From the NCBI GenBank assembly GCA_947034895.1, contig OX344764.1, forward strand, positions 682,001 through 746,000: a stretch of DNA of 64,000 nucleotides, given 5' to 3'. Numbering within the stretch: position 1 is the first letter of the stretch; each line of letters opens with the position of its first letter. Both the position numbers and the translations under genes were made by a program. The DNA comes from Rhytidiadelphus loreus. Its lineage: Eukaryota > Streptophyta > Bryopsida > Hypnales > Hylocomiaceae. The notes under the pieces are model-generated. The model was given only the letters and a program-made list of their open reading frames with translations. It was not told the origin of the DNA and did not search any database. Positions 2,334 through 63,022 of the stretch are shown piece by piece.

Positions 2334-2363
2334 TTATGGTGGCAACGGTGCTAGATTGTGAGC
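2334..2363. repeat. Left 9-bp target duplication and terminus of nested Mutator-like element
   Basis: TTATGGTGG (2334-2342) is repeated exactly at 15981-15989. The element begins CAACGGTGCTAGATTGTGAG at 2343; the reverse complement of its right end (CAGGGTTGCTATTTTGTGAG) matches at most positions. Joining the flanks at one copy of the duplication restores a normal unit of the surrounding tandem repeat. Confidence 0.88.
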
Positions 2364-2846
2364 TTGCGAGCACGAGCCTACGAGCGGTGAGCTTGGGTTC
2401 TATGAGCATGGAATTCATGTATATATAAATTTTTTTTAAAGAGACCAGTTTCTTCTAAAAAGAGACAATGTTTTTTCAATTTCCAGTGTTGTGACTATTT
2501 TAGGATTTAGGGTGCTTATTACCGTGGACCCATTACCGTGGGCTTGTTACAAAGTAGTGACGACCACGGACGCTTTGCTCGAGACTTAAAAGCGTGGTAT
2601 AGGGCTCAGGATTTTTTAAATTCTTTGATTTTTTGAATTTCTTAATATAATAGAGCATAGATTTTAAAGACAAAAAAACTGAAGTATATGAAAATTGGAA
2701 TTCAGACAAAAAATGGTCTGTATTCAATACATTTGCAAATAACAGTATTGGCCCAAATAACAAGTGATAATTCTGAAGCTATATCTCAGATTGTAGTCTA
2801 CAATCTTCAAATCTGAAATGCCAATCAATAAAGTACTATTGCACTT

Positions 2847-5800
2847 CTAAGCGTGTTTATGACTGTCGCTTGTAACCTTGATGATACCAGCCCTAATGAG
2901 AAGCAACTTGACCTCATTGAAGCTAAAACTTGGAGAATGGATGAACTTGTCATCTATCTGATTCATTTTGCAGAAGTAACGAAATAAATAGTAAAGATGT
3001 TTGCAACTCACATATTGGTGCCGGCCACCAATTGCGGAGACGGCCATGTCTACAAAATCAGGACAAGTGCACTCAGAATACATGCCAAGTGTAATTCGAT
3101 AAACCTTTTCTGTGGGCTCTGTTCCAGTTTGAAGGGTGATAATGGCTCCAAGTCCGGGTAAGGGGAGCATAGTAACTCCCAAAATCAATCCTTTGACATT
3201 AGCAGTACTTTCCCATTTATTGCGATGCTCTATAGTCGGAGCATTTGCAATACATCGAATGGTCTTGTTTTTTCGAGATGTTGGATATCTGTCCGCATTC
3301 ACCGGGCTAGCTTCATTGTAAAAGTTTGCCTTGAACACATTAGACATCGTAAACAACCGTCGAGGTGACATAGGTGGGCGTTCTTGGAGTAGAAAGCCAG
3401 CTTCTTGCAATAGTAGGGTTTCTTGACGAGTCAAACTAGTGTCATTGAGCATTGGCCATACGTCTGGAACTTGGGGCCAATCAATTACCCAAGGACGTTT
3501 GGAGCCTCTTACACATCGGTCAATGTCATCTGGACAAAACCAGAAGTCGGTCATGATCTCCTTGTTTCCACCATATTGCTTCTTGTGACCACGATACGTT
3601 GGGGCTGGAGTACCTTTAGATCCCTTCGCAATTTTGGCAGTGCAGCGAATGTTTGTCCCTCGCTGTTGAGTGTGACATTTACAACTCGATTTATGAGATA
3701 ATCTTGCAATGTGCCACTGTGATGTGTCACAGTCACTCTCCATTGCAGTGGAGACATGAGGTACATGCAACAAGTCAACTACTAGACTAGGTTCATTAGA
3801 AACCACTATGGGCGTATATGTAGAGCGGATCTGCACTCGTGGTTGAGAGAAGTTGACCTTGTCCGGTCGATGAGAGTCACCATCTGACCCGATAGGTAAG
3901 TCAAGCTTACGTTTGTTGCTACCAAATACTTCTTCACCTTCCAAATGTGGAATACGTGTTCCAAGACCATCTTGTCCAGGCAGGTCATTCAGGGCCTCCG
4001 CAATCTTCTTTGGATCACCACTTCGTCTAGCGCCTCTTAACTTCAACTCTGATTTTGATGGCCCGGACCTTGATGTTGTACCATTCAAGAATGCTCGATA
4101 ATTGGTCATTTGCATGAAGGCTCGAATGCAATCATCACAAGTGGCGGCAAACAAATCATTACCGCGATTACCAGATTGTTGCAACCACTTGTTGTGAACT
4201 GTTTCCGATAAGTTACATGATGGCATGTTTGCCATTTCATCGAGACTCAATCCCTAGAAGAAAACCAAATGAGTAATTAGCTTTTAAATAAAAACATGCG
4301 AAAGAAAAATAATCCTACTACACACCTCATCTTTGTAAACCACTGCGATTTTGATCTATCGAGTAAGAGGTCCAGGTTCCCCTCGGCGCCGAGAGGTAAG
4401 GCCCCCACTCCCAGTAGTCAACAGAGATCTGTTTGAAGTATATACTAGCCCTTTGGGGGGACGGAAAATAATTAAAATGATATGCAAGTAGTTCTACAGA
4501 AATGAAACTATAAGATACTGAAGGATCTACAAGAAACACATACAAAGATAGAGAAAGGATTTCCAATGAAGTACCATTTGCATGAACCCGCCCCATTGGC
4601 GATATCGGAAGTGCCAAAATGCAAGCCACAACTCTAGTTCGCGCAGAGAATCTTCTGAGGCTGCTCCAGATGATAGCCACCAAGAGCGGATCGCCAAGTA
4701 TCGTGTCTCAGCTTCCTCCATAGTCTTTGAATCTTTGTACTGCTTGCAAAGACGATTGTGTTGGAATTGCATGTCTGGCTTGATTAGTTTTTGAGTATGG
4801 CGATGCAACGAGGTACTCCAATGTAGGAGACATGTACGTTCACGGTTCACCATCTCTATTTTAGAATCCCCCGTACCATATACAATGCGAACTGCATTCC
4901 AATTCGCTTGGGCACTATCAGCCATAAAGCCCTTGAAGTTTGGATTTGGCACGCCATTGCGTCTCATGACCTCGTTCAAGGACCTCCACATAATGACTTG
5001 CACCTCAGTGTCTTCGGATTGCATGTCACAAACGGCAATTGTCATGACCTTCTTGCAACCGGTGTCATAGACATGGCAAGCCATAGTGGTCCAATTCTTA
5101 ACACGTTTGACATGGTCAAACATAATCCATGCGTTCTCTAGATCTCCACCAGATTGCATTCGTTTCACCAAGTCGACTCCACTACCAAGACCTTCCACCA
5201 ACATCTTAAAAAGATACACCTTTTCTTTCCCTTGTCCAGGGAAGACACTGTCATGAATGTAGTCAAACTTCAAATTCCGCTTCATATTCATAATACTGTC
5301 AATAATCCCCCCGTTGCCAGTGCTACGAAAAGAAGTAATGATATTACGGATGTTAGGAGAACTTAGTCTCTGGAACCTGTCCATGACATCCTCTAATAAT
5401 TTTCCTCGCAACATATCCTTAGGCCCATCACCACTGTGTATCAACTGTCTGTCTAGAAATTGCTTACTAGCTGCTAGGGCAATAGCAGAGTTAGTGGCAG
5501 TAGGTGTTTTTGCAACCTCATTCGCGATAAGACCGGAAATAGTGTCTAAAGACTGTCTACAAACTCCTGTTGCTATAGGATGCTTGTGATTCCCTAAATG
5601 GATGCATGCTCTAGTCATTAACGCGGTATCGCTGAAAACATAATATATTCTAGCGTCACACAGACTAACACAAGTTGGGGGATGTTTACAGATCTTGCAA
5701 AGAAGACTTGAATCCTTCGGGGGATAAACACCAACTTGGAATGGAGCACTAGTATATCCACACCATTGTGACTCGTTTCTTTTGGAGAACCGCTTCAAAT

Positions 5801-6767
5801 ACTGACACTCAGGATTAGTACATACCAGATGTCCCGCACAAGAGGACTTTCTGAACTTTAGCCTCTCTTGGTTGTGGATATTGGATGTCATGGTTCGACA
5901 CCAAGCATGACCATCGTATTGTTTATCCATGCCTTGTAGATTCCCACCGCTACATGATGAAGACGAAGCTTGAAGCGCCGGTAATTCGAATACTACGTCT
6001 CCATCAAAATCTGCTGGAAGATACTGCATTTTGTGGTGGATTACTGAATCGAAGTCTAATGCAGCAACTTCATTCCTAGACCCCGGAACTGATGCAAGAT
6101 TCTTTAGGCATCTAACTATGCTAATCGTTCCTATACTATTTGGATACGTTGGGGGGCGAGGATGAATTGGAAGATCAAGATTTCCAGATGGTGTGTGATA
6201 CATATCTGAAGACATCTCCTGGATATTGTCAAGATCTTCACTCCGAGACTCGACTTGAAGAGTTGGCTGACTAGGGGACTCTCCTTCAGACTCACTCGAT
6301 ATATCTATGATAGGGCCAAGAACTTCTTGTTTTAAATGGCAAAGGACTACTGGAGTACATGCAACTGTGACATGGTCTAAATCCTGAGAAGACCGGATTC
6401 CCTGCCGAGGGATTGGCATATCCACTGTAGAGTGGTCGGATTGGCGAGATAAAATCTCAGTGGAAACACCCATCAGGGGAGTGGACAAGCCGTAGGCTCT
6501 ATAGCGGCCTTCATGGAGGTGCCAGACAGAACCAGTCTCATGTTCTAACTTTAAGATGTGGACGTACTCCTTAAGGTGTCTAGAATCGGACATGACCTCT
6601 TCTTCGACATATATACTAGACTGCATAAAACCGAATCGGACGTACAGAAGGTGCGAAGGCAATGTAGCATACCCGTCTACCCCAATAGGAAGAACAAGTG
6701 GAATTTCATGCCCATTTGCTCGAATGGAAGCCATGGACACCTTGTTCACTATGTATATCAAGTTCAA
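2847..6767 (-). CDS. Mutator-like (MULE) DDE transposase with SWIM zinc finger
   Basis: Two exons on the minus strand, 6767-4575 and 4253-2847, joined in phase 0 across a GT-AG intron, give 1199 residues. Residues 310-397 form a Cys/His cluster (CAGHLVC, CKIC, CIHLGNHKH), like the WRKY/GCM-type DNA-binding fingers of Mutator transposases. The catalytic core follows: VYDTG near 567, MADSAQAN near 615, the CLLHW Cys-His pair near 646, and acidic residues near 683-712 as the likely third carboxylate. Exon 2 holds a SWIM motif (CTCPDF ... CKHLYY), a usual C-terminal feature of the family. The protein should cut and rejoin the element at its termini in the nucleus. Translation may start at the first Met or at MASIRANG, 11 codons in. 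No frameshift or internal stop is visible, so it may be functional. Confidence 0.85.
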
Positions 6768-8158
6768 TACTATGACTATAACTCGTCGAACCTATGAAAC
6801 TGAGAGACAATGAGAGGTGTGTTTGTGCAACTTATACGGATCCGTTCGATTGGAGAACGGATATAAATTTCAAGGCATGTAGTGTCCACAAGTAATGACA
6901 ATGAATGGTTGTCAGTGGCCCCCACAATATTAAATCTAAAACCGTCTTTGAGAGGTAATTTTCAAATGGATTCTGTGAACAAAACATTGTTCATGCTACA
7001 GAAGTCATAAATGAACTTAAAACAAAATACGATCAACTGGCAATGGATTTGAAGAGTCGGATCATATTATGATTGGGTAAATATCACAAATTAATTTCGG
7101 TCATTTGATGAGTGAGGGTATCCATTAGATCTAATTAATGATTAAAATAATGTATAGTACTCATTTCATTATTAGACTGCATGCCATATCCATAATTATT
7201 TGAGAAAATATACGGACAATTCTCCTGTAGGAAGCCAAAAGATACGATATGCAAACAGATTCTGCAGTTAACAAATTTAAGTGGATCCACTAGAAAATAT
7301 ACATGTGATGGCATTGGCAGTCGACATTGATTCATCGGGATATATAAGGACCGGAGTAATGGTTTCATTTCAGAGAACTTGCTGACGATGATCGGTCAGA
7401 AATCAAAAGGTAGGGTTTAGGATGATTTCTGAAGCAATCTTTGATACATAATTGATAACACTTAGTACATTTAGGCATCCTATAAGTGAGACCGGTTGTA
7501 TTCTCTAAAAATATAGTGAATACAGAAGGGGTTGTTCTTTTGAGTTCACATGAACCTCACATTAGAATATACACTCGCAGCACTGCATACATTCAGGTCA
7601 CGGACGTTACACCGTTTCAAATCTATTAAGTTAGTCTCATGCAGGCTGCAATATGTATAGCCGAAAGTGGATCATGTCGTAGTTTTAGGAAGAGGAGGAA
7701 GAGAGGGAAACTGTTGTACTCCTCGCCAAAGGAGTTGAGAAGGTCTAGGAGTAGATACAAGCAAATTGTAGTAAGAAGTACGCCTGCACGAAGTGAATCC
7801 GTCTCTCAAAATGTCAACGATCATAATAGTATTGATCAAGAAATGCAAAGAACGGCCGTTAAGTTACCATGTATTCGGATTCCTGAGTTCAATGTTGGCA
7901 AGCTCCGAATGACGTCCATGACGAGTGCAAGTGAGTGTGAGGTAAGATACTTGAACTGCGGTCGGAGTAAAGGTAGTTTCGCAATATAGCAGTGTACCAT
8001 ATTTATAAAATATTGTTGGATAATAAACTGATAGAAACATTTGTAGAACACTCTGCCGTGCATAATTTAGCTTTTCATTTCATGTGCTCCAGAGGATTCT
8101 GTAGAGAGCTTGATTGCTGTAAATTATCTACTAAGTGAACTATACATTATATGAATAA
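6768..8158. other. Divergent intergenic region of nested element
   Basis: AT-rich region between the divergent transposase and methyltransferase genes, presumably holding both promoters. An open frame at 7639-7989 (+, 116 residues, Arg/Lys/Ser-rich near its start) has no recognisable domain; it could be a small basic protein or chance. Confidence 0.4.
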
Positions 8159-8159
8159 A

Positions 8160-8520
8160 TGAATTCTTGGTCCCCTCTCTTTCTCATCTTCCCCCTTCTT
8201 GCTTCCCCCTTCCCCCTTCCCGCTTCCCCCTTCCCCTTCCCCCTTCCCCCTACCCGATTCCCCCTTCCCCCATCCCCCTTCCCCCTTCCCCCATCCCCCT
8301 TCCCCCTTCCCCCATCCCCCTTCCCCCTTCCCCCATCCCCCTTCCCCCTTCCCCGCCCTGTATGCCTCCCTGCTTCCCAGGCGTCCACCTCCTCGTGCTC
8401 CTCGCTTCTCTTCCCTCTCTACCTCCTCTTCCGCCTTCCCCCTCCCCGATTCTCCGCCCTCTTTGCCTCCCCTTCCGCCTTCCCGCTTCACCTTCCTTCC
8501 CCGTTCTTTCTACTACCTAA
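8160..8520. repeat. Pyrimidine-rich simple repeat (CCCCCTTCCCC units)
   Basis: About 360 bases of almost pure C and T on the plus strand, built from degenerate CCCCCTTCCCCCAT and related units. The repeat lies 130-490 bases upstream of the methyltransferase start codon, where a CT-rich plant leader or promoter could lie. The long proline- or glycine-rich frames through it are compositional artefacts. Confidence 0.85.
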
Positions 8521-8650
8521 ACCGAATTGCGATTTCTCTTTCTTGCATTAGGTTTTGATTGTTGCCACCCGACCTGCAAACCCCCCTCCCTTAGAATACA
8601 GAAATTGATTGTAGGTCGTGACGTTGTTCCCTTTCCAGCAGAAGAAGGCC

Positions 8651-11600
8651 ATGGGGAGAAGGCCAGCTACAAGAAGTGCGGCAGCGGAAGAGCAAGAAAG
8701 TGAAGGACATGGGAGGAGTACTCCGGTCGTTGGTGATGCAAATATCAACCCTCAGACCGAACTGGCGAACACCTCCGTAAGCATTTCGAATCCTCTCTTC
8801 TTTAACCATTCAAAATTCTCTTGCGTCTAGGCCGTAGGAGGGATGCTTTGGGTGTGCATTGAACGTTTGAAGGCTGTCTGACTGAATGTGGGTGGGCTTC
8901 GGGGATCCCGTATGGGCCGAGGGGAAGTGAGGATGGGGCAGGGAGTGAATGATCGGGGGCTGTCTGTCTGATTGTGCGTGGGCTTCGGGGATCCCGTATG
9001 GGCCGAGGTGAAGTGAGGATGGGGCAGGGAGTGAATGATCGGGGGCTGTCTGTCTGATTGTGCGTGGGCTTCGGGGATCCCTTATGGGCCGAGGGGAAGT
9101 GAAGACGGGGCGGGGAGTGAATGATCGGGGGCTATCTGACTGACTGTGGGTGGGCTTCGGGGATCCCGTATGGGCCGAGGGGAAGTGAGGACGGGGCGGG
9201 GAGTGAATGATCGGGGCTGTCTGACTGAATGTGGGTGGGCTTCGGGGATGCCTGATGGGCCGAGGGGAAGTGAGGACGGGGCGGGGAGTGAATGATCGGG
9301 GGCTGTCTGACTGAATGTGGGTGGGCTTCGGGGATCCCTTATAGGCCGAGGGGAAGTGAGGACAGGGCGGGGAGTGAATGATCGGGGGCTGTCTGACTGA
9401 ATGTGGGTGGGCTTCGGGGATCCCTTATAGGCCGAGGGGAAGTGAGGACGGGGCGGGGAGTGAATGATCGGGGCTGTCTGACTGAATGTGGGTGGGCTTC
9501 GGGGATCCCGTATGGGCCGAGGGGAAGTGAGGACGGGGCGGGGAGTGAATGATCGGGGGCTGTCTGACTGACTGTGGGTGGGCTTCGGGGATCCCGTATG
9601 GGCCGAGGGGAAGTGAGGACGGGGTGGGGAGTGAATGATCGGGGCTGTCTGACTGAATGTGGGTGGGCTTCGGGGATGCCTGATGGGCCAAGGGGAAGTG
9701 AGGACGGGGCGGGGAGTGAATGATCGGGGCTGTCTGACTGAATGTGGGTGGGCTTCGGGGATGCCTTATGGGCCAAGGGGAAGTGAGGACGGGGCGGGGA
9801 GTGAATGATCGGGGGCTGTCTGACTGAATGTGGGTGGGCTTCGGGGATCCCTTATAGGCCGAGGGGAAGTGAGGACGGGGCGGGGAGTGAATGATCGGGG
9901 GCTGTCTAACTGAATGTGGGTGGGCTTCGGGGATCCCTTATAAGCCGAGGGGAAGTGAGGATGGGGCGGGGAGTGAATGATCGGGGCTGTCTGATTGAAT
10001 GTGGGTGGGCTTCGGGGATCCCGTATGGGCCGAGGGGAAGTGAGGACGGGGCGGGGAGTGAATGATCGGGGGCTGTCTGACTGACTGTGGGTGGGCTTCG
10101 GGGATCCCGTATGGGCCGAGGGGAAGTGAGGACGGGGTGGGGAGTGAATGATCGGGGCTGTCTGACTGAATGTGGGTGGGCTTCGGGGATGCCTGATGGG
10201 CCGAGGGGAAGTGAGGACGGGGCGGGGAGTGAATGATCGGGGCTGTCTGACTGAATGTGGGTGGGCTTCGGGGATGCCTGATGGGCCGAGGGGAAGTGAG
10301 GACGGGGCGGGGAGTGAATGATTGGGGACTGTCTGACTGAATGTGGGTGGACTTCGGGGATCCCGTATGGGCCGAGGGGAAGTGAGGATGGGGCGGGGAG
10401 TGAATGTTCGGGGGCTATCTGTCTGATTGTGCGTGGGCTGAGGGGATCCCTTATGGGCTGAGGGGAAGTGAGGACGGGGTGGGGAGTGAATGATCGGGGC
10501 TGTCTGACTGAATGTGGGTGGGCTTCGGGGATGCCTGATGGGCCGAGGGGAAGTGAGGACGGGGCGGGGAGTGAATGATCGGGGCTGTCTGACTGAATGT
10601 GGGTGGGCTTCGGGGATGCCTTATGGGCCGAGGGGAAGTGAGGACGGGGCGGGGAGTGAATGATTGGGGACTGTCTGACTGAATGTGGGTGGACTTCGGG
10701 GATCCCGTATGGGCCGAGGGGAAGTGAGGATGGGGCGGGGAGTGAATGTTCGGGGGCTATCTGTCTGATTGTGCGTGGGCTGAGGGGATCCCTTATGGGC
10801 TGAGGGGAAGTGAGGACGGGGCAGGGAGTGAATGATCGGGGGCTGTCTGACTGACTGTGGGTGGGCTTCGGGGATCCCGTATGGGCCGAGGGGAAGTGAG
10901 GACGGGGCGGGGAGTGAATGATCGGGGGCTGTCTGACTGACTGTGGGTGGGCTTCGGGGATCCCGTATGGGCCGAGGGGAAGTGAGGACGGGGCGGGGAG
11001 TGAATGATTGGGGGCTGTCTGACTGAATGTGGGTGGGACTTAGGGATCTCGTAGGGGCCGAGGGGAAGCAAGGCTGGGATTGGATTTAGGTGATAGGGGA
11101 TGTCTGGGTTGAAAATTCTCTCATATCCTGATGACTGGAATTTAATTCCAATTTCATGCTTGATAATGTTCCAGGAAATTATGGAGGATACTAACCAACT
11201 CCCGCCTCCTGCGAGCCCTAATGTGGATGCCGCTAGGGTGGATTGCGTTGAGGAGGATAATATAACTGATGATGACATGGATATTTCTAATCTGGACTTT
11301 ACGTCTGAGGATGCATTCAGAAGGTCCCAGAAAGTTAACTCTGTTGCCTCTATAGCGTCATTGAGACTAAAACCTCATTTGATATCTCGTTTGAGAATTC
11401 CCTTGTGTAGACTTGTCCAGATGCCAATGGTCCGTCCAGCACTTCATTGTGACCTAACCAGACTTGAGCAAGAATTCGTCCACGGATACAGAGATGGATC
11501 TAGTGTTTTCTATGTGTCTGTCACGAATGAGCAGGGAGAGACGGAGGAGGTTTCTGATATTGACAAGGATTTATGGGGACCTATATGGAATGCTGAGAAT

Positions 11601-14600
11601 GATGAATTCAATGCCAACTTACGGGCAACGCCCGGCCTGAGCAATTATGAAGGCTCCAAATTTTTCGTTTGTGACGGTAATCACAGGCTTCTTGCTTGGT
11701 CCTCATACATTTCCAAGCACCATGCTCGTGATAGAGAGTGGCACGTTTCCGTGGATTCCATAATCCTAGAGACCAAGGGCAAAATCGGGCAGGTCATGCA
11801 TGCTATGCATGATATAAACAAGTATGTCTTTCTATCTTGACTTCTTTTTTTGTATATCCTTCATTCACATCACTTGTTGCCTTCTACTAATCACCTTTTT
11901 TTTATTCAGGCAAACGGATAATTCGTTTATTAAGACCAGCCTTGTGCACACGCTTTATCGTGTACAGAAGTACGGTGTCCTCCCTTTGGACAAGTTTGCC
12001 GAGCATTTGAGTGACTCCGAGATGACTCAGTGCCAACAGAATACAAAGAAGAGTTGGTACACAATGTCTCTGGAGGTTTTCACTTCATTTATTTATCGGG
12101 TAATACTCATCTTTCAATCAATGTATGGTGTTTTAGTGTCCCTTCCTTTATTGAAATTACACTACTAATTTCTACGACATTGTGCAGTACGAGATTGCAG
12201 CTGCAGCGGATGTGGCAGTCAGGAAATACAAGGAAGTCACTGCGGGTGAGGATCAATCCGAGGAAGGAATCCTGGCTGCAATGAGATTGGGTATTAAAGA
12301 GCAAACCACAAAACTGACCTAGAAATTGGGGAAGTTGACAGCTGTCGCAAATCCCAATCTAGGGACGGAGTGGCTGAGAGAGGTACGATGATATTATCAA
12401 AGCCCTTCTTCATTTCAGTTGGTTCTTCTACTTGATGAATTGTTCTAATATGATTATTATTTTTCTTCTAGATTGAGCGCCATTGGAGTTCGAATATAAC
12501 ACCAGAAATGACTCTGGACAAGTTACAGATGATAGCCACTTGCAACGTGAAGAGTGAACACAAGGTCAAGTGGTTGCGGTGGTGGAATTCTTCAGTTCAA
12601 ACACGAGAGGCAAGAAGGTTTCCCCTTAAGCCGATCGGAGAGAATGAGTTAAAGTCCTTCTTGACTAAGGCTTGTTGGTATGTAGGGATACGTGTTTCTC
12701 ACTGTACTCTAATTTCTTTATCTCCTTCTGCTATTTGCTTCAGTGGATGATTTTTGGAAATGTGGAATTGATTGATATTTGAAGTCCTTGTAATTTACAG
12801 ATTGAAGATGTTGGGTTAGAAATGTTTGATGATATTGTCAAGAAGGACCAGTTGGCATTGTCTATGGAATCTCCAAAGGAGCCTGAGAGTTTTGGAGATT
12901 ACATTGAAGGATGGAGAATTCGAGTTTGGGACAAAGCATTCCTGCACAATTTTAAGGGGCAAGACGTTTTTAGGAAGTCTGATGACTTCAAAAAACGCAA
13001 GGACAGCGATCTAGTTGTGAAACGTGTACTCTACCGGTATGCTTATTTTCAATTATTTGTAGAACTTCTTCACGATTGTATTTCATTTCAAATACAAACT
13101 TTATTTTCCTTGAATTGACATAATTTGTTCCTATAGGTACTTCAGATACGAGCTTCTTCCAAAAGGAGCCATTTCGAAGCGAGATCTGCCTCCTTTCCTT
13201 GGAACGTGGTTGGATGTCTCGTCCGAGCATTGTATGTTCTCTACCTCACAGCTAAAATGGTGGACGAGTGTGCATCTGAAGTCGGGCGCTTGGTATTTGG
13301 ATTGCCCACCGGAGTTCACGCCACCATCAGAGGAGTACCTGAAACAATCTATTCATTCTCATGAGGTGGTAGAAGACATTGACGAGTTTGCAGGACTTGA
13401 TGAAGATGCAAAAGTTCGGGCTATGAAGAAGAGAGAGGAAGCTGACAAGAAGATAGCATTGAAGAATGCAGAGGCAGTGGAGAAGGCGAAGGAGAGGATG
13501 GCTAAGAAGGCTTCTAAACTTGCAGAGACTGGAGAGGCGTCTACAGCTAAGCAGACAAAAGGCAAGAAGGGGAAGCAACAAATTCCGCCCTCTTCCACTA
13601 AAGACGAGGGCTCCCAACACCAACAATCTGTTTCACGAGGAACCAAGCGTGATGCTGATTATGTCTCACTAAGTGATGGTGGTATGGTGCATGGACCTGG
13701 AGCTGTGGGATTTTTAAATGACTCAGAAATTTCCATCAATGAGTTCATTCTCAATTTTTCTCTTACACAGGTGTTGGCTGATCCACTACCCCAAGTGTAT
13801 CACGACATCCTAAACTTTATTGATAAGGTTAGCACTTTCCCTAATCTACTTCAAATTACCTTTATATATACTCTTTTTAAGGTCATTTTTTATTTTACTA
13901 ACATCCGTCCATTTGTTGCAGCATAAAGGGGAGAAGCATCGCTTTTTTAAAGGAGTGAAGAGTGATAAACCGCGCGTTGACCTTATTCTTGCTGACATGC
14001 CAGAGGGTTTGCCTGTCCCTGATTTGTCGGTGCCTTCCACAAGCATTCCCAAGTGGAACATGGACTCCCCCATTTGGTTGGAGTCATTGTTTGAGTTTGC
14101 TGATGGCCACCTCCATGATGACGGAGGTCTTATCATTATCTATCCCCTGAGAGCTGTTACAAAAGCCACTATTCTGAAGTACGGTACTACATATTCTTTT
14201 GAAAAGATGAAGGATTGGTGGGGAATGAACTGGCTACATTTGGCCTCACCGGTTTCACCCTCAAGAACGGTATATTCTTTTTCCATTTCCTTATTGACTC
14301 CACGCATCTTCTGATGATACTTGTTTAGTTTATTCGAATCCTTGCAACGGTAATGAAATCCGACGTCTGTTCATATATCTCTGGAATTGTATGCATGCCT
14401 CTGTTTTAGTTTTTATTTTTTTAAATGAAGGTTCTGTATTTTTTTCCAATTTACATAGATCTAATGTCTACATTGTTCTTCATTGAATTTATTTGTGCAG
14501 ACCCAACGATTTGGAATTGCTTTGTTGGTGAGGAACTTCCCAGGGGCTGCCCCTTCTAAGTTCAAATTCCAGCCATGTCCGACCTTGAAGAAACTTGGTG

Positions 14601-15484
14601 TGGATGTAGCACGCGACGATGTACTACAGAATTTTACAAAGGTTGAAACTTTGACTATGGACAACAACTCCAAGCCTTGGAGAGGGGCGCGAGAAAAGGA
14701 TCCTCGCTTTCTACAAATGTTGATTGAAGCATGCTCATTACCAAATGATGTTGTCTTGGACTGCAGTGCTTCTACTGGTAATATGAGATCCCTTGACTAT
14801 CTATTTTTTGCTAATCCTTTTACCAATTCTGCTTAGATCCTTTAAGTATTGTTTACTGACTTTGTTGTTGTCATATGGTTGATGCAATTAGGTGCCTCCA
14901 TCCACGCTTGCAGGATTCTGAGTAGGCACATCGTTGCACTTGAGGAGGACCAAGCCATCTTCCATGCCATTTTGGCCCCAATGATTCGGATCCATTCAAG
15001 TGTTCCCACCTCTACTGCAATGGTGGTATTACATTCTGATGATGAAGATGCATTGGAAGTTGAAGTTCCACACATCGTGAAGAAATCCCGATTCAGTAAG
15101 TAAATCTATCCAGAACTAGTTTTTTTTTCTAAGTTTAGTTCTATTTTTGTCCATTTTGTTTAACATTACTTTGTTCATTTGCATATCATTTAAATTTTTT
15201 TTTGGGATTGCAGCATGATTTCTAAAGAGGCCGGTCTTCGTCCTTTCTTCACTCTACCTGGTTTTTTCCCAAGCCCGGAGAAGTCGTTTGTGCTGCCATC
15301 CTATGCAGAGGCTTTAGCTTCAACATTTGCATGTCAATCAAATCCGCGTGTGAGGAGAAATTCTAGTGTAGTGGATCCACGCGTCTTGCAGTTTGTAGAT
15401 GTGATAGCCTTAGGATCAGACAATGAGACATCATCGTTTGATAGTACTGGTCACTCTGAGTCTATGTCAACATCTTCTACTTGA
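8651..15484 (+). CDS. ParB-like domain fused to beta-class DNA N6/N4-methyltransferase, transposon-borne
   Basis: Eleven exons fit GT-AG rules and keep phase: 8651-8776, 11175-11821, 11910-12099, 12188-12382, 12472-12681, 12801-13036, 13137-13827, 13922-14269, 14501-14777, 14892-15099, 15214-15484 (3399 bases, 1132 residues). Residues ~110-250 resemble the ParB/Srx fold, with VCDGNHRLLAW and DGNHR at 209-213. A Lys/Glu-rich coiled region follows near 540-620. The C-terminal half has the permuted beta-class order: a DPPY-like motif ADMPEG (D790-P792), then SKPWR near 938, then the SAM-binding strand VVLDCSASTG (D968-G974) and HIVALEED. It should act on DNA in the nucleus; adenine-N6 or cytosine-N4 specificity cannot be read from sequence. 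TAG at 12320-12322 (codon 366) breaks the frame; CAG would restore family-like Gln. Phage and bacterial ParB-methylase fusions are known; a spliced plant transposon copy is new to me. Confidence 0.75.
8880..11075. repeat. G-rich ~86-bp minisatellite in intron 1 of the methyltransferase gene
   Basis: About 25 tandem units of 86-87 bp, each with GGGTGGGCTTCGGGGATCCC, then GGGCCGAGGGGAAGTGAGG, then GGGGAGTGAATGATCGGGG. Variant units recur in blocks (for example a pair of GCGTGGGCTGAGGGGATCCC units near 10430 and 10780), suggesting segmental amplification. The array fills nearly all of the 2.4-kb first intron, so the transcript would carry runs of G. Frames seen on the minus strand through it are repeat artefacts. 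Confidence 0.95.
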
Positions 15485-15960
15485 TTTGTTTTGGGGTTGC
15501 ATTACACTATATGCCTTTCATTTTATCATCTAAAATACAATGTTTTCTAAGCCTTAGTTATCGACATTCTATGTACCCTTCATTATTGTATTTGAAGGGT
15601 AATCTAGTTCGCAAAATTAGTGGATTTTCGGTCACAATCTTATCTATTATTTTCTAGTGTTACTGAAATGAAAGGTTGTTTTTCTCATAAAAAAATTCAG
15701 GGATTTAAAAATTCAATGTAAATATGATTTATAATAAACGGAATTTGTGACAACAGAATTCAAAATGACTTTCACTAAGCATGCCCTAAACTCATTAAGA
15801 AACACAATTTTCGTGACCATTCCCCTTTTCTGCCTAATATTCTGAGGTCACGTCATTATTCTTAAGTCCACGGTCATGGGTACTTCATCAACTTTAAACT
15901 CTCAAAAATATATCTTAACATACTCATAGGCTCACACACTCACGCTCGCAGGCTCACAGG

Positions 15961-15989
15961 CTCACAAAATAGCAACCCTGTTATGGTGG
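15961..15989. repeat. Right terminus and 9-bp target duplication of nested element
   Basis: The element ends CTCACAAAATAGCAACCCTG (15961-15980), followed by TTATGGTGG (15981-15989), identical to 2334-2342. GTGAGCC-type words in inverted orientation (15920-15975) mirror those at 2355-2400. Confidence 0.88.
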
Positions 15990-20719: not shown

Positions 20720-21480
20720 TTAATCTTTGACTACGTACATATACATATATATGGTTCCAAATTCAAAACAGGTTCCACTGTCCACAGTTGTTCTTTAGTC
20801 ATTTCATTCACTGGGTTTATGTCTACGATAGTAATGTATACACTAGCAATAAAAGCAACGTGTATCTTGCATATTTTAGAAAGTTATTTTTGCTCCACAC
20901 AGAGACTAGATTGAATACTTAGTACTCTTTGTGTCTTACTTTGCTACTTCAGAAGTTCTCTTAGTACAAAATGTCACATTTGGATGTGTTTGGTACAGAG
21001 ATCTAGTTACACATAAATACTCAATGGACCACTTGAAATTTAATTGTGTGTTGCTTTGCTACTTTACAAGTACTCATAATATACATTGTCAAAATTTTGG
21101 CGTGTTCAGTACAGAGAACGTCCTTAGAAAGTATTCTACTCCAAGTTTAGGAAGTATATATATGGAGAAATTAGAGTACTTGTTATTCTTGGGTACTTTC
21201 CTCATATCCTCCACATGTATTTTGTACTTTGCTTACAACCACTTTGAACTTGTATGAATTATGTACTCTTAGGTGAAAGTTGTATTTTGGTAGTGTACTC
21301 GTTTTATGTACTTTTGGTATTACTCATCAGTGCTTGAAATATGATTGTGCACTTTATCTTGTACTTATCTCTGTACTGGTTGAGAAGTATGTGCACACCA
21401 CAGTTGTTCTAGTACTACAAATACTCAATTGTATATAATTAAGTACATAACTAAGCAATTTCTGTGGACGTGTTTGGATT
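20720..21480. other. Non-coding, GTAC-rich intron-like stretch of the outer element
   Basis: Between the RING-like exon and the acidic exons. GTAC and AGTACT words are much denser here than in the surrounding AT-rich DNA, matching other non-coding parts of the outer element. Confidence 0.45.
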
Positions 21481-21630
21481 CACTACTAGAAAATTCTGTT
21501 TTTTTGTTGATTTGGACGTGTTGATTTGGACAGAAATCAACAGTTTTTTGTTCAAATCAACACTTTACTGTTGATTTCTGTCCAAATCAACACGTCCAAA
21601 TCAACAAAAAAACAGAATTTTCTAGTAGTG
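21481..21630. mobile_element. 150-bp CACTA-type hairpin miniature element, copy 1
   Basis: It begins CACTACTAGAAAATTCTG and ends with its reverse complement. Two arms of about 63 bases are nearly perfect complements around a ~24-base loop. The 3-bp duplication ATT flanks it (21478-21480, 21631-21633), as expected for CACTA elements. A TTTCAG acceptor-like site follows directly at its right edge. Confidence 0.9.
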
Positions 21631-22304
21631 ATTTCAGGTTTGTCATCCCAAGAGTTTCCTGATCCTTGAACTTATTCTTCAACCAGTTTCACTGAGGGTG
21701 ATGCCAGTCAAGCAGTGAGACCACTAAATGTTTGTGGTATGGGAGGACCGGTAATTTCTGAGGTCGAAGGATCAGAGCCTTTAGAAGGCAGAGGGGAAAA
21801 CATGATTCTCAAGGGAGTTGTTCCTCATCAGAGAAAAAATATCCCTAAACCACGAAAGCTGGACGAGATTTCATATGAATGCTTACAAAAAGTACGAGGG
21901 AAGGGCCAAGAGCCAGAGTTGGGTAGTGGAGACGAGACATCCAGCGATGATGAGCCTCTTGACGTGGTGAAAGTGGTGAACAACTTGCCAGAGAGCTCAG
22001 GAACTTCTCTCTCAAGTTCTGAAGAAGGTACTTTTGGACGTGAAAATCCTCAAGATGCAAAAGATTGTGAAAAATCCAATGAGGAGGATGCGGTGGAACA
22101 GATTGCTAGCGACACTACTACACTGGCTATCCAGCATACCTTAGCACCAAGGGTGGAAAGTCCTGAGAAAATGCCACAGCCTATGGAAGTTCCAGCGATC
22201 CTCTCAAAGGAGTCTATGGAGCAAAGCCCTACAGTGGTGGACAAGTTTCGGGTCCAGTGCAGGGAAAAGACAAAGGCACATGATCCATTGTCTTTGATTG
22301 CAGA

Positions 22305-22454
22305 CACTACTAGAAAATTCTGTTTTTTTGTTGATTTGGACGTGTTGATTTGGACAGAAATCAACAGTTTTTTGTTCAAATCAACACTTTCCTGTTGATT
22401 TCTGTCCAAATCAACACGTCCAAATCAACAAAAAAACAGAATTTTCTAGTAGTG
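22305..22454. mobile_element. 150-bp CACTA-type hairpin miniature element, copy 2, inside a coding exon
   Basis: Same sequence as copy 1 apart from about one base in the loop. The 3-bp duplication AGA lies at 22302-22304 and 22455-22457. Element plus duplication is 153 bases, a multiple of three, so excision would leave the flanking reading frame intact; as it stands the element brings a TGA into the frame (22396-22398). Confidence 0.9.
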
Positions 22455-23289
22455 AGAGGAGGTTCATGGTTCGGATTGTTTGGAAGGAGGTGGCGCTAGC
22501 ACAGATGGTGGAGGAACTACACCACAGAAGGGAGTGGAGGAGGTCCTAGATTTGAAGGAGACACCACAGAAGGGAGTGAAGGAGGTTGTAGACTTGAAGG
22601 AGACGCCACAGAAGGGAATGGAAGAGGTCCTAGATTTGAAGGAGATGGAAGATGTGGTGATGGAGGAAAGCGAGAAGATGACTGAGAAGAAGGGCCATTC
22701 TAGTGGATCAAAGAAGCGCAAGAAGAGCCCTGAACTTCAAAAAGAAGATGAAAAGTTTCCCACGTCACCAGAAAACTTATATAATGCCGAGGCCACCACT
22801 CTCACTGCCCTTACTGACATGATAACAGTAAAGGTGCTTGAGACTAGTGGGAAGCCTGTTGGTGAAGATGGTATGGAGGCCACGTCTCCAGTTGGTGATA
22901 AGGAGAAGGGGACAGATTGTCCATCAAAGTTGCCATTTCCACCAAGTAGAGTGCAGACAAGGTCCCAAGCAACTACCTAGGTAAAGAAGAAGAAGAAGAA
23001 GCGTGGCACCTAACTACCTAGTCACAGCATGTAGTGCAATGTAGTTACAGTTGTGTATCTTGCCTCTTGCAGGAAGGGGCTGTTGAATTGAACCAGGGGG
23101 TATTTATGCTCTTTCATATTTACTGTCATTTGTATCTTTGTGGTGGGTGGTTCTGTAGTTATAAATTTATAATGCATTGGATGTAAATTTGTAGATCATT
23201 GTTTTAGTTACAAAACTAGTTTAGTGGTTTATAGGTATCTTTTTTTTGCTCTTTAAGCTCAAGGTTTTTGTTTTTTCTCTTCAAGCTCA

Positions 23290-24374
23290 CGGGGGTTTTT
23301 TTTGGACTTGTAAACCATACCAGGTTGTGCCTTGGTTTGACCTTCAAGATTTATCAAGGGGGATGGAGGCTATTCCTATTCCAGTTTGTGATTCACATAA
23401 TTTTATGATACCATTCCGGTACATGCCCCACAACAAGGTTCATGACAAGGCCTCTCTCAATCTCAGCCTTTTTTCACCAAAGATTGGCTGTTGTTGTGAT
23501 TGTAGGACTGATGATTGTTTAATGGGGCGTGGTACTTGTGACTGTGGAAGGGCATCAAGTGGACAGATAGCTTATGAGGAGGGTGGCATATTGAAGGATT
23601 GTTTCCTTCAGCAAGGTGTCCACAACTCCATCGGTAAAAATAAGAAAAATAAATCCTCTTTTTCTAGTGCTTGGATGGGGGTCCGTGCCTCATGTGGGAA
23701 ACGAGTGTCACGGCCATTTATTAGAGAATGTAGTGTGAGGTGTAGATGCCACAGTAAATGTGGTAACCGCATTGTTCAACAGAGGATGAAGTATGGAGTA
23801 GAGGTTTTTCACACTGGAAATGTTGGATGGGGGGTCAGGGCAAGTAGGCCCATTCCAAAAGGTGCATTTGTATTTGAGATGGCTGGAGAGATTCTAACAA
23901 ATGCAGAGATGATTGTTAGAACTCTTGTAGCTCAAGATGGTCCCTCGATCCTTTGCACTGCAATTGGACGCTGACTTGGCCACTGAAGCCAAGCTTGATG
24001 ACAACAGTCTACTCTGCTTGGATTCTTTTTTTTTTTGGCAACGTGGCAAGATTTCTAAACCACAGGTATGTAATTGATATTTGGAAATACATTTGGACCT
24101 TTGTTTTACCAAGTTGTAGCATTCATTCTTGATTAATGGATTGGAAGTTGGATGTAGGTGTGAAGATGCAAACTTGATCAACATTCCAGTGCAGATTGAT
24201 GAATGGAACAAGAGCATATACCATGTTGCTTTCTTTACAAGGAGGGATATCTTACTTCATGAGGAGTTAACTTGGGACTACAATTATGACTTCAACTATG
24301 AAGACCCTGACTTGCCATCTTTTGTTTGCAAGTGCGGGAGTCCCTTCTGTAGGGATACTTCTTCTCATGCATAA
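23290..24374 (+). pseudogene. SUVR-type histone-lysine methyltransferase fragment (pre-SET, SET, post-SET)
   Basis: The frame from about 23290 encodes VPWFDLQDLSRG, a Cys-rich pre-SET domain (CCCDCRTDDC, CDCGRASSG, CRCHSKCGN), then the SET core: GWGVRASRPIPKGAFVFE, GEILTN, LDADLATEAKLDD, GNVARFLNHR, CEDANLINIP, ELTWDYNYDF, and post-SET CKCGSPFCRD. This order and NHRCEDAN match plant SUVR4/SUVR1-like enzymes, which methylate histone H3 lysine 9 using SAM. The last exon (24159-24374) joins after a GT-AG intron that splits Arg. Two breaks exist: a 1-base frame change near 23935-23960, and an 11-T run at ~24026-24036 one base off frame. The N-terminal WIYLD region of SUVR proteins is absent, so this looks like a captured partial gene. 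It ends convergently, ~780 bases from the transposase stop. Confidence 0.75.
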
Positions 24375-25156: not shown

Positions 25157-28100
25157 CTATTGCTCATGGAATGCCAACCAATCACGCAAAGCATCTTCAC
25201 ATACTCTCATACTTTTGCTAGACATCTTGTACACTGGGGCGCCCTTGGCCCTGTGAGAAGCAAGAACCATTGGGAATTTGCATGCCCTGACAAGATGTGC
25301 GTCAACATGCGCATCTACAGCTTTATCACAGAATATGTAGGTTTTATCCCCATGTCCATGTTTCTTGAAGTATTTTGCCTTCAAGACCTCATCCCCAACA
25401 GCAAAAAACCCTCCCCATGGACAATTTAGAGGCTCCTCTAGTACAAATTTGGACCTTGTGCACTGCAAAATGTAGAATTCTACGCCATCTTCATTATCCT
25501 CTTCTGCAGGTATCATGAAATTATCACCCACTTCAACCAAGTCTCCTAATTCCAATGACACACCATCATACACCCAATTAGCCTCGTTGTCCATTTCCTC
25601 CATTTGAGCAGCCACTAAAGTAGCGCTCTTTGGAACTAGTCTCTCAACGTTCCAGCCTTGTACATGAGAGGAGTTCAAGCAATTATCCCAGTCGCCATCA
25701 ATACATGGTAAACAAAAACAAGACAAAGTACGTGTCTTCAAGAGAGTAGGATCGGTTTCAGAGAAGCCCATAATAGAGTAGAGCAATTTGGATCCAGGTA
25801 GAGTGCTGCATCGAATGCTCCTATCAGTGTGGGCAACTTCTGCCTCTCCAATGTGCCAGAAGATACGAGAGAGGGGAGGGGCCACATTGAGCCTCGTCTG
25901 TGTGTAGGAGCTCGGAACCCGCTCAGAGTACTTTTCTTGAAGAAAGTCAACGACTTGTGTAGCATTCGCCAACTGCCTCAAAGGATTTTGAATTTGCTCT
26001 GCACGTAGAGCCCTCTTGACTATCGCCCCAGCCCCATCCCACTCTCCTTTGCCATGAGCACTCTCAAAAAAATTCCACCGCATCTTGCATCCCTTGGTGA
26101 GCATGGGATATCTTGCCACAAAGTACATGGCTGTTGCACATTTGAACTGAGCGCTGCAACCGTCACTATACACCCAATGCTCTTGTGGAACACATCCAGA
26201 GTCTTGTAACCAATCCCAGTGCAAGAGCAAGCAATGCTGGACATAAGCGGAATCATGAATTTTGTCATCTGATACGTAAAAGTGGGTTTGCTTAAAAATG
26301 GTTTTACCTTCCCTCCACATTGTAATGTGGACAAGGATGGTTATTGACGTGCTGAAATAGTAAAGACTTTGCACTTCGTTTTGAATAGCAAAACTATAAT
26401 TTTCAGCAAAATCAATATGAGAAATGAGTACTCCCTCTGGAATGTTCTTCATCATCAATTGGCATTGTTCATCTTGCCACCTTGCTTTGAAGTTGTGAGT
26501 GATGAACATGGAGACTGTCTTCTCCATATAGGACAAGAATTCTGCCACGGACGTGTCTTTGAAAGCTTCCCTCAACCGCTTCTTAGGCTTTCCAGTCCTT
26601 TGATCAATCCCGACCTCATAGTATTCAAAGCACTTCCACTTGATTGTGAAGGAGTTAGTACTGGACAACTCCTCAGGGCAGAGGGGAAATAATTGAAACC
26701 CACAATTTGGACAATCGCCCATGAGACAATTAAGCTTGTATCAAACATCAAAGTTCCCTTTGGGACAGACACATGCCTCCCACATTAGAGTAATCCGCTT
26801 ATAAACTGACTCGTGTGCATGGCAAGCCCCTGAAACCTCACCTTTACAAACTAAACATTCACATGTGCATGAAATACTCAAATGTAACCCCTTGTGTTTA
26901 TCGCGAAGAAGGTTCAACGCAACCTTCATGAAGTCCATCTGCACATGATAAATGCAGCAACAGGTGTTTCGTTCCTTCAGTTTTCGAACCCACCAAGGTT
27001 TCAACCTTTCAAAAGCTCTCTACCGCACGCTACATTCCGGATGAGCTTCTTTGAAACGCAAGAAGAATGATGTCTGACAAGCAGTAAATTTTATTCAAAA
27101 TTGTTGTAGTCATTGTACTAAAAGTAGTTCAACACAAGATAACATTGTGTGAAATAGGTATAAGAAGTACAAAAAATTTCAAAAAAATCTCTAGCTAGTA
27201 CTCCATTTCTACTTTTTTGTAGACTAAGTATAACAGATACATTAGAATTTCAAATATAAAAACGCAATGTACTAAATAGTCCCTATTCAAAGACCCAAAA
27301 TACAGGAATAAAACATGAAGTATTCCCAGTGTACTAATACACTCCCTATTCATATACCAAGAAAGTACAACTTGCACACAAAGTCCCAACAATGTACTAA
27401 CACAATTTCTATTCGAAGACCGTGAAAATACAACGCAGGCACAAGTGTACAAAAACGTACTAACAGTCCTTGTTTACAGACCCTAAAAAATCTAAAAACA
27501 TTGAAAGTGTACGTAATGATTACACATTGAATCTTCATGTACATTATGAAGAAAAAAGAGCATTTAACAAAATTTTAACTATGTACATTAGAAACGTTAC
27601 TCCCCCTAATGAGTATCAAGCCAGAACTAATCAAGGGAATGCATAGTATTTAAAATACACAACTCTTGCACCTAGTGATACCACTTCGTACATTGATACT
27701 TTTTGTAGCCCAAATAGAACATGAGAATTCCCACATGTATTCAAATGAAATACAACATTCTCTATGTATATTTAATGACATGAATGAGGTTGTTTTCTAC
27801 AATTGGTCAGAATGGCATACATGAAGGAGAAAAAAGTACAAAAAACACGGCTACAAAGACAGATCTTACTTGTGTTTCGCAGAGGTAGTGTGTAGGATGA
27901 GGTTCCGCCCATAGATTCCGTCCTACATTGCGTGTGACTACGTCTTTTTTGTTTGGCGAAACCTTGGTCTGATCAATCCACCAATCTTCAATTTGTTGTT
28001 TCACGTAATCAGACAATCCTTCTCTCTTTTGACGATGGAGGCGAAGGCGAGGCACACTCTCATTGGGATTCAACGCATACACTCTTCTATTCAAGGCTAT

Positions 28101-62486: not shown

Positions 62487-63022
62487 GCAAGTTGCAATTA
62501 TTCATAAACTCATGAAATACTAAAAAAATATGCAATTGATGGTCACTTTCAATGACCTTGTACGTGAAACTAAAAATTGGGGCAAGAACCTTGCCCTGTA
62601 CTTTAATGTCCAAAACAATATAATCTCATGAAATTCATGTATTAAAAAATGGGAAACATATGGTGCAAGTTGGAAATATTCATTTCAACTCCAATAATAA
62701 AAAAAAATATGGAATTGGTGGTCACTTTGAATGACCTTGTACGTGAAAGTAAATATAAGGGCAAGAACCTTGCCTTGTACTTTAATGTCCAAAACAATGT
62801 AATCTCATGAAATTCATGTATTAAAAAATGGGAAACACATGGTGCAAGTTGGAAATATTCATTTCAACTCCAAGAATCAAAAAAATATGCAATTGGTGGT
62901 CACTTTGAATGACCTTGTACGTGAAAGTAAATATAAACGCAAGAAACCTTGCCCTATACTTTATGTCCAAAACAATGTAATCTCATGAAATTCACTTAAA
63001 AATAAAATGGGAACTATGTTCT
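62487..63022. repeat. Three tandem copies of a ~178-bp unit
   Basis: GCAAGTTG anchors occur at 62487, 62665, 62844 and 63023, giving a period of 178-179 bp. Each unit contains GGTCACTTTGAATGACCTTG and ACTTTAATGTCCAAAACAAT. The unit length is like that of plant satellites, but three copies only are present. Confidence 0.85.

Follow-up and report, generated by a model that had tools for sequence, protein, structure and literature searches.

The window examined here, 64,000 nt of Rhytidiadelphus loreus (OX344764.1 of assembly GCA_947034895.1, positions 682,001-746,000 of the forward strand; all positions below are counted from its first letter), contains a degraded copy of a DNA transposon family that is bounded by terminal inverted repeats (TIRs), is Mutator-like element (MULE)-like in character and carries two genes. 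One encodes the transposase. The other is a spliced gene whose product joins a ParB/Srx-like domain to a relative of the beta-class DNA methyltransferases, and comparison of subfamilies shows that it has been kept under purifying selection. There is little doubt about the anatomy of the element or the identity of its domains as described below. The methyltransferase half is probably non-catalytic, and a short motif arrayed ahead of exon 2 is tentatively put forward as the sequence that the protein binds.

Boundaries and transposase of the element

The element is delimited by the sharp end of similarity in related copies, its TIRs and its target-site duplication (TSD). The features at its ends and in its transposase half are as follows; dN/dS is the ratio of nonsynonymous to synonymous divergence.

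2333-2342, no strand: left TSD ATTATGGTGG, of which 9 bp, TTATGGTGG, are repeated at 15981-15989
2343-15980, no strand: whole element, 13,638 bp
2343-2407, plus strand: left TIR, six direct GAGC steps
15919-15980, minus strand: right TIR in inverted orientation, four GAGC and two GAGT steps
2847-4253, minus strand: transposase open reading frame 2 (ORF2), with a SWIM-like CxC..CxH recognised by eye; dN/dS 0.16-0.17 to copies d2 and d3
4527-6791, minus strand: transposase ORF1, 754 amino acids (aa), with D..D and CxxH; dN/dS about 0.2 to d2 and d3

An earlier note on this DNA had placed the second gene inside a bounded transposon, and related copies bear this out. Among ten copies fetched with their flanks, similarity to the window begins at 2342-2348 in nine and stops at 15958-15982 in eight; one end is not recognisable in c4, c7 and c8. 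Seven related copies have a perfect 10-bp TSD (10 of 10 bases), that of the window being 9 bp, and these seven together with the window range from 11,988 to 14,521 bp. The ends form an imperfect TIR whose GAGC steps make them the densest 60-bp windows of the element. In the host assembly (489 contigs totalling 407 Mb, of which five large sequences make up about 395 Mb), a search with exon 2 of the second gene found at least 150 copies, the best 150 of 1394 candidates, and the 60 transposase rows used here, two of which are one locus, derive from the best 59 of 1758. Because such searches score the best candidates only, these copy numbers are lower bounds. Among the matches listed, six of the eight copies at least 93% identical to the window's exon 2, its own included, lie less than 1.5 Mb from the start of a large sequence (C4 at 242 kb, 546 kb, 693 kb, which is the window, and 970 kb; C5 at 816 kb; C2 at 1.42 Mb), a possible subtelomeric preference of recent insertions.

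The description of the element as Mutator-like holds in part. A TSD of 8-11 bp together with a TIR defines MULEs (PMC6446971), which fits the seven 10-bp duplications and the imperfect TIR seen here, and the CxxH following the second Asp and the SWIM-like CxC..CxH picked out by eye may point the same way. On the other side, a Pfam search of the transposase ORFs gave no MULE or SWIM match, and the transposase is absent among the 30 PF10551 rows of the host genome. Profile alignment with MULEs of the same genome (hhalign) gave P 0.085 and aligned the D2 block, an unrelated profile giving 0.42. The element is called MULE-like rather than a proven MULE, its transposase having the motifs without the Pfam domain.

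The second gene and the two halves of its product

The second gene lies on the plus strand, divergent from the transposase ORFs, as had been proposed. It was rebuilt exon by exon, and its junctions were compared with nine other copies down to about 50% identity. Eleven exons (8651-15484) translate to 1132 residues with one stop; where no other basis is given, exons rest on this reconstruction and comparison.

8651-8776, plus strand: exon 1
11175-11821, plus strand: exon 2, ParB/Srx-fold domain, DGNHR at 11673-11687
11910-12099, plus strand: exon 3
12188-12382, plus strand: exon 4, premature TAG at 12320-12322 (reconstruction and near copies)
12472-12687, plus strand: exon 5, 3' end placed by comparison with relatives; the donor gt is replaced by at (12688-12689)
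12801-13036, plus strand: exon 6
13137-13827, plus strand: exon 7, charged linker region
13922-14269, plus strand: exon 8, DMPEG at the motif IV position, 13994-14008 (reconstruction and motif comparison)
14501-14777, plus strand: exon 9, KPWRG at 14672-14686 and degenerate motif I DCSAST(G) at 14759-14777 (reconstruction and motif comparison)
14892-15099, plus strand: exon 10, LEED after motif I
15214-15484, plus strand: exon 11 and stop

That the gene is spliced is supported, and most junctions recur in the nine other copies, with a few lesions and, in the distant copies, shifts; exon 1 is recognised in eight of ten near copies and not in d2 or d3. Of the eleven phase-consistent exons claimed earlier, the exons and junctions stand and the unbroken phase does not, the frame being interrupted by the TAG and the exon-5 donor lost. 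The TAG is codon 366, a Gln in 9 of 10 near copies. The exon-5 donor reads gt in all nine other copies and at in the window; therefore, exon 5 most likely ended at 12687, six bases beyond the initial model. For the frame to hold, the last intron has to begin at 15100, where the window has gtaaat and the nine others gtaagt. As both the Gln codon and the exon-5 donor are intact in most relatives, the window copy is a decayed member of its family. At least one in-frame stop occurs in the window and in all ten near copies, while three of eight distant copies (f1, f2 and f4) are free of stops in the codons covered, f4 having a frame break in exon 6. A relative, P0014, reads as a transcript would, lacking introns across the exon 2-3 and 3-4 joins; its frame slips close to the latter. 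The closest named relative is a hypothetical protein of the moss Ceratodon purpureus (54% identity over 65% of the query).

For the ParB half, a structure model of P0014, 78% identical to the corresponding stretch of the window, supports a ParB/Srx fold in the exon-2 domain. The profile searches divide: NCBIfam DGQHR matches two of seven members (best 0.0019) and phrog_1033, ParB-like, three of seven (best 0.095), but searches of the gene product gave no match to ParB_N (PF02195), for which a genome search matched small contigs only. The ParB assignment made earlier stands by modelled N-domain fold and not by that profile. The canonical CTPase box GERRxRA is absent, DGNHR standing in its place, and a Pfam search of the gene product found no helix-turn-helix match.

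Homology of the other half to beta-class methyltransferases is upheld. PF01555 (N6_N4 methyltransferase) matches all seven members of the set A1 (best 7.8e-5) over the region of motifs X to I, the window copy scoring 23.2 bits, below the curated cut-off of 26.7; all seven also match a PHROG methyltransferase profile (best 8.8e-10); and the profile aligns with CcrM over 42-271, placing DMPEN under DPPYN (E 0.01 over the chain and 0.13 over the stretch). The succession of motifs, IV, X, I, is that expected of the beta class. In this class the catalytic motif IV has the consensus [DNS]PP[YFW]. The motif series reported earlier could be located (DGNHR, DMPEG, KPWRG and DCSAST(G)), but its methyltransferase members are non-canonical. 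Motif IV reads DMPE, DCPE, DCHE or DCQE in the copies and DMLE in the decayed c4, the aromatic residue being replaced wherever the motif is seen. Its Asp and Glu are invariant in A1, so the site is constrained even though non-canonical. The S-adenosylmethionine (AdoMet) motif FxGxG reads [ST][AST][AS]TG in seven rows of A1. Judged by these motifs, standard catalysis appears unlikely and a non-catalytic role is the better guess, a confidence tempered by some database relatives with a more canonical motif I.

The idea that the transposon methylates its own ends is not supported, since the catalytic motif is replaced in every copy where it can be seen. The broader alternative, an active methyltransferase placing N6-methyladenine (6mA) or N4-methylcytosine (4mC) on the element's own DNA, has also been suggested for algal relatives with a like architecture in the accessory-protein account of PMC12477816. 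It draws on the beta-class homology, the permuted motif order, the near-canonical motif I of some relatives and purifying selection on the methyltransferase part (dN/dS 0.065-0.205 among the seven pairs whose dS could be measured once near-identical copies are set aside). Set against the altered motifs IV and I of the copies, it seems improbable. Canonical methyltransferase and ParB genes occur in the host assembly only on small contigs (C174, C234, C295, C309 and others), which are likely bacterial contaminants.

Linkage, selection and host methylation

The two genes travel together. For 49 of the 60 transposase rows a divergent exon-2 match lies within 10 kb (2.6-6.9 kb away), and for 53 within 40 kb, against a chance expectation of about 0.004 per row for 20 kb; transposases among the linked rows are 68-100% alike. 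Whole-gene dN/dS of the ParB-methyltransferase gene is 0.119 (window-d1), 0.106 (window-d2), 0.084 (window-f4), 0.091 (d2-f4), 0.127 (f1-f3) and 0.133 (f2-f7), with four pairs saturated (f1-f2, window-f2, d2-f1 and f4-f2). For the methyltransferase part, the same six pairs give 0.065, 0.075, 0.125, 0.102, 0.205 and 0.102, and f1-f2 gives 0.111. Near-identical pairs show 0.305 and 0.322 overall and exceed 1 in single regions, relaxed ratios that come from few changes. The transposase spans 0.16-0.45 overall. These ratios indicate purifying selection between subfamilies alongside decay of the near copies; the gene would have been kept functional along the lineages that transposed. It is very improbable that a passenger host gene was captured by a Pack-MULE-like element and has no role in it. 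MULEs do capture genes, as described in part of PMC13317346, but here linkage persists over transposases of such varied similarity and the gene is conserved at dS of about 1 and more. A PF01555 genome search found small contigs only, a search that missed the element's own copies too and was not aimed at a host copy. Divergence along the element is uneven: between window and d1, dS is 0.03 in ORF2, 0.13 in ORF1 and 0.52 in the ParB part, as if subfamilies had swapped halves.

Resident copies also bear the marks of decay by deamination. Within element DNA of the window and six copies (two incomplete; window 8100-11110 excluded), C>T and G>A changes account for 238 of 277 singletons and the reverse changes for 11, with rates from within-element counts of 0.0197 at CG, 0.0166 at CHG and 0.0034 at CHH. 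Plant-type methylation at CG and CHG would be expected to leave this pattern, which also agrees with most of the stop codons (at CAG, CGA and TGG). Resident copies thus look methylated, and the earlier proposal that they are shielded from host silencing is not supported for them.

Arrayed motif, possible function and known systems

Three further features bear on regulation or lie near the gene starts.

4379-4396, no strand: near-palindrome CCCCTCGGCGCCGAGAGG, located between transposase ORF2 and ORF1
8188-8354, plus strand: CTTCCCC repeat upstream of exon 1 (repeat scan)
8872-11068, plus strand: minisatellite of intron 1, 25.7 copies of 86 bp; every one of the 21 CCGAGGGK octamers on the window's plus strand lies in it

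A minisatellite precedes exon 2 in the window and in every fetched copy, within intron 1 where exon 1 is recognised. Its unit measures 106 bp in d2 and d3 and 107 bp in d1, whereas the window's group, with 4.7-25.7 copies, and c8 have units of 86 bp. CCGAGGGK occurs 5-21 times per array, always in one orientation; elsewhere in each 20-kb stretch, with both strands counted, it is found no more than twice. The units share a core, T[AC][TG]G[GC]GCCGAGGG[GT]A, which beats 200 shuffles in five of the eight comparisons made across unit types. Matches to the 15-mer number 939 in the whole genome, whereas a reversed control yields 3. Among the first 100 of these sites, to which all placements relative to genes refer, 59 lie at most 4.5 kb upstream of an exon-2 match, 58 of them in gene orientation, and another 10 are either in or near a transposase or farther upstream of an exon 2, at 4.5-12 kb. 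In the part of C1 concerned, at least one site accompanies 9 of 16 exon-2 matches, and six or more accompany 5 of them. The motif is also carried by two arrays with units of about 128 bp, neither of which served in deriving it. Sixteen listed site pairs form a perfect 20-bp palindrome, TCCCCTCGGCGCCGAGGGGA. ParB sites are palindromes, and together these two points lead to a parS-like hypothesis in which the 15-mer is a candidate binding site of the element's ParB-like protein, an attractive idea that falls somewhat short of an even chance. Palindromic copies also occur away from listed exon-2 and transposase matches (C1 16950307, 26579305, 45784873 and others), some with a second site 110-135 bp away.

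In the model favoured here, the element protein would be a sequence-specific, probably nucleoside triphosphate (NTP)-gated DNA clamp. Assisted by the probably non-catalytic methyltransferase fold, its ParB domain would load at two places, the array of GGSGCCGAGGGKA sites that precedes exon 2 of the clamp's own gene and the dyad within the transposase gene, and the loaded protein would regulate both element genes in trans. Such regulation would most likely consist in countering silencing long enough for transposition, like VANC in Arabidopsis VANDAL elements. The clamp and regulator model as a whole comes close to an even chance without quite reaching it; an anti-silencing role, argued by analogy, is rather doubtful.

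Two alternatives compete for the same observations. The arrays may be neutral minisatellites and their shared core a leftover of homology or a splicing or transcription signal: GC-rich arrays expand easily, and copy number varies more than fivefold within the window's group. Three points speak against neutrality: one 15-mer is present in four sizes of unit (86, 106, 107 and about 128 bp), its orientation is nearly uniform, and it far outnumbers the reversed control. Neutrality nevertheless retains a substantial minority chance. Alternatively, the protein could be a transposition cofactor that binds the subterminal GAGC steps or bridges the ends with the transposase, in the manner of a second subunit. 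The dense steps at both ends and the close linkage to the transposase would suit this role, yet the motif common to the arrays sits in front of exon 2 rather than at the ends, and nothing links the protein to GAGC, making it an unlikely one.

Several observations weigh against the clamp model itself. The P0014 model retrieved nothing in Foldseek at E <= 0.001 (best 0.024). Motif I is more canonical in some database relatives (TAGTG in P0004, TVGTG in P0010 and P0011, AFASTG in P0013, pieces that do not include motif IV), so that AdoMet binding or catalysis may still occur. Because near copies look methylated, any protection would be transient or absent. The shared core is no better than 200 shuffles in three of the eight unit-type comparisons and may be a remnant inherited from an ancestor common to the arrays; of the 100 listed sites, 31 are not assigned to the element; 7 of the 16 exon-2 matches mentioned above have no 15-mer and four of the other nine only one or two; and enrichment in the c and d copies is non-independent, as the motif was derived from them.

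Elsewhere in the window, nested inverted repeats at 21475-22455 (151 nt, 91%; arms of 70 nt, 97%, and 63 nt, 100%) form hairpins like those of miniature inverted-repeat transposable elements around open frames. Open frames at 23225-24374 with a Pre-SET and a split SET domain are probably a histone methyltransferase gene, and an open frame of 527 aa at 25157-26740 on the minus strand gave no match in a Pfam search. A 179-bp tandem repeat lies at 62522-63013 (2.7 copies); similar DNA (72-74%) is present in the flank of copy c2.

The idea put forward earlier as a new strategy was also not new. The account in PMC12477816 gives Ectocarpus Sola1-1_Ec32 a 1104-aa accessory protein with ParB-like and N4C/N6A methyltransferase domains, encoded opposite the transposase, and cites green and red algae for others. 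These algal proteins, known from that description only, share both domains, a similar length and the gene's orientation; the element described here differs in its plant-type host, its Ceratodon relative, its 10-bp TSD and its motif arrays, and its motif IV is non-canonical. Phage fusions of a ParB-CTPase fold with an N6_N4 methyltransferase (in the relevant part of PMC12704722) combine a ParB fold with a PF01555-type domain, whereas the present gene is eukaryotic and spliced, with a long middle region, DGNHR instead of GERR and altered methyltransferase motifs; the text on these fusions contains neither "plant" nor "transpos", and the MULE survey text does not contain "methyltransferase". Retrotransposons of dinoflagellates and charophytes likewise carry a DNA methyltransferase-type gene, but the excerpted account (PMC5890265) concerns a C5-cytosine enzyme shown to be active. 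Arabidopsis VANDAL MULEs, as presented in part of PMC5735166, also have a second conserved gene adjoining the transposase, and a short motif in tandem arrays within introns, the arrays varying between related elements. VANC is not described there as a ParB protein or methyltransferase, and the likeness is one of description only. New here are arrays upstream of exon 2 with differing units yet a common 15-mer, which recall VANC target arrays. In its most specific form, an NTP-gated ParB-type clamp with a parS-like dyad, arrayed half-sites and a pseudo-methyltransferase would mark the element's own copies and hold off or steer silencing, units and protein co-evolving by subfamily as a convergent counterpart of VANC; so detailed a scheme is speculative and, taken whole, unlikely.

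Taken together, these results add a plant-type genome with a moss relative to the algae from which ParB-methyltransferase transposon proteins were known, and selection and linkage mark the gene as a core part of its element. They also argue that the methyltransferase half may be non-catalytic and supply a concrete candidate binding sequence. What such proteins do thereby becomes open to direct test, which would link bacterial clamp biology with the silencing of plant transposons.
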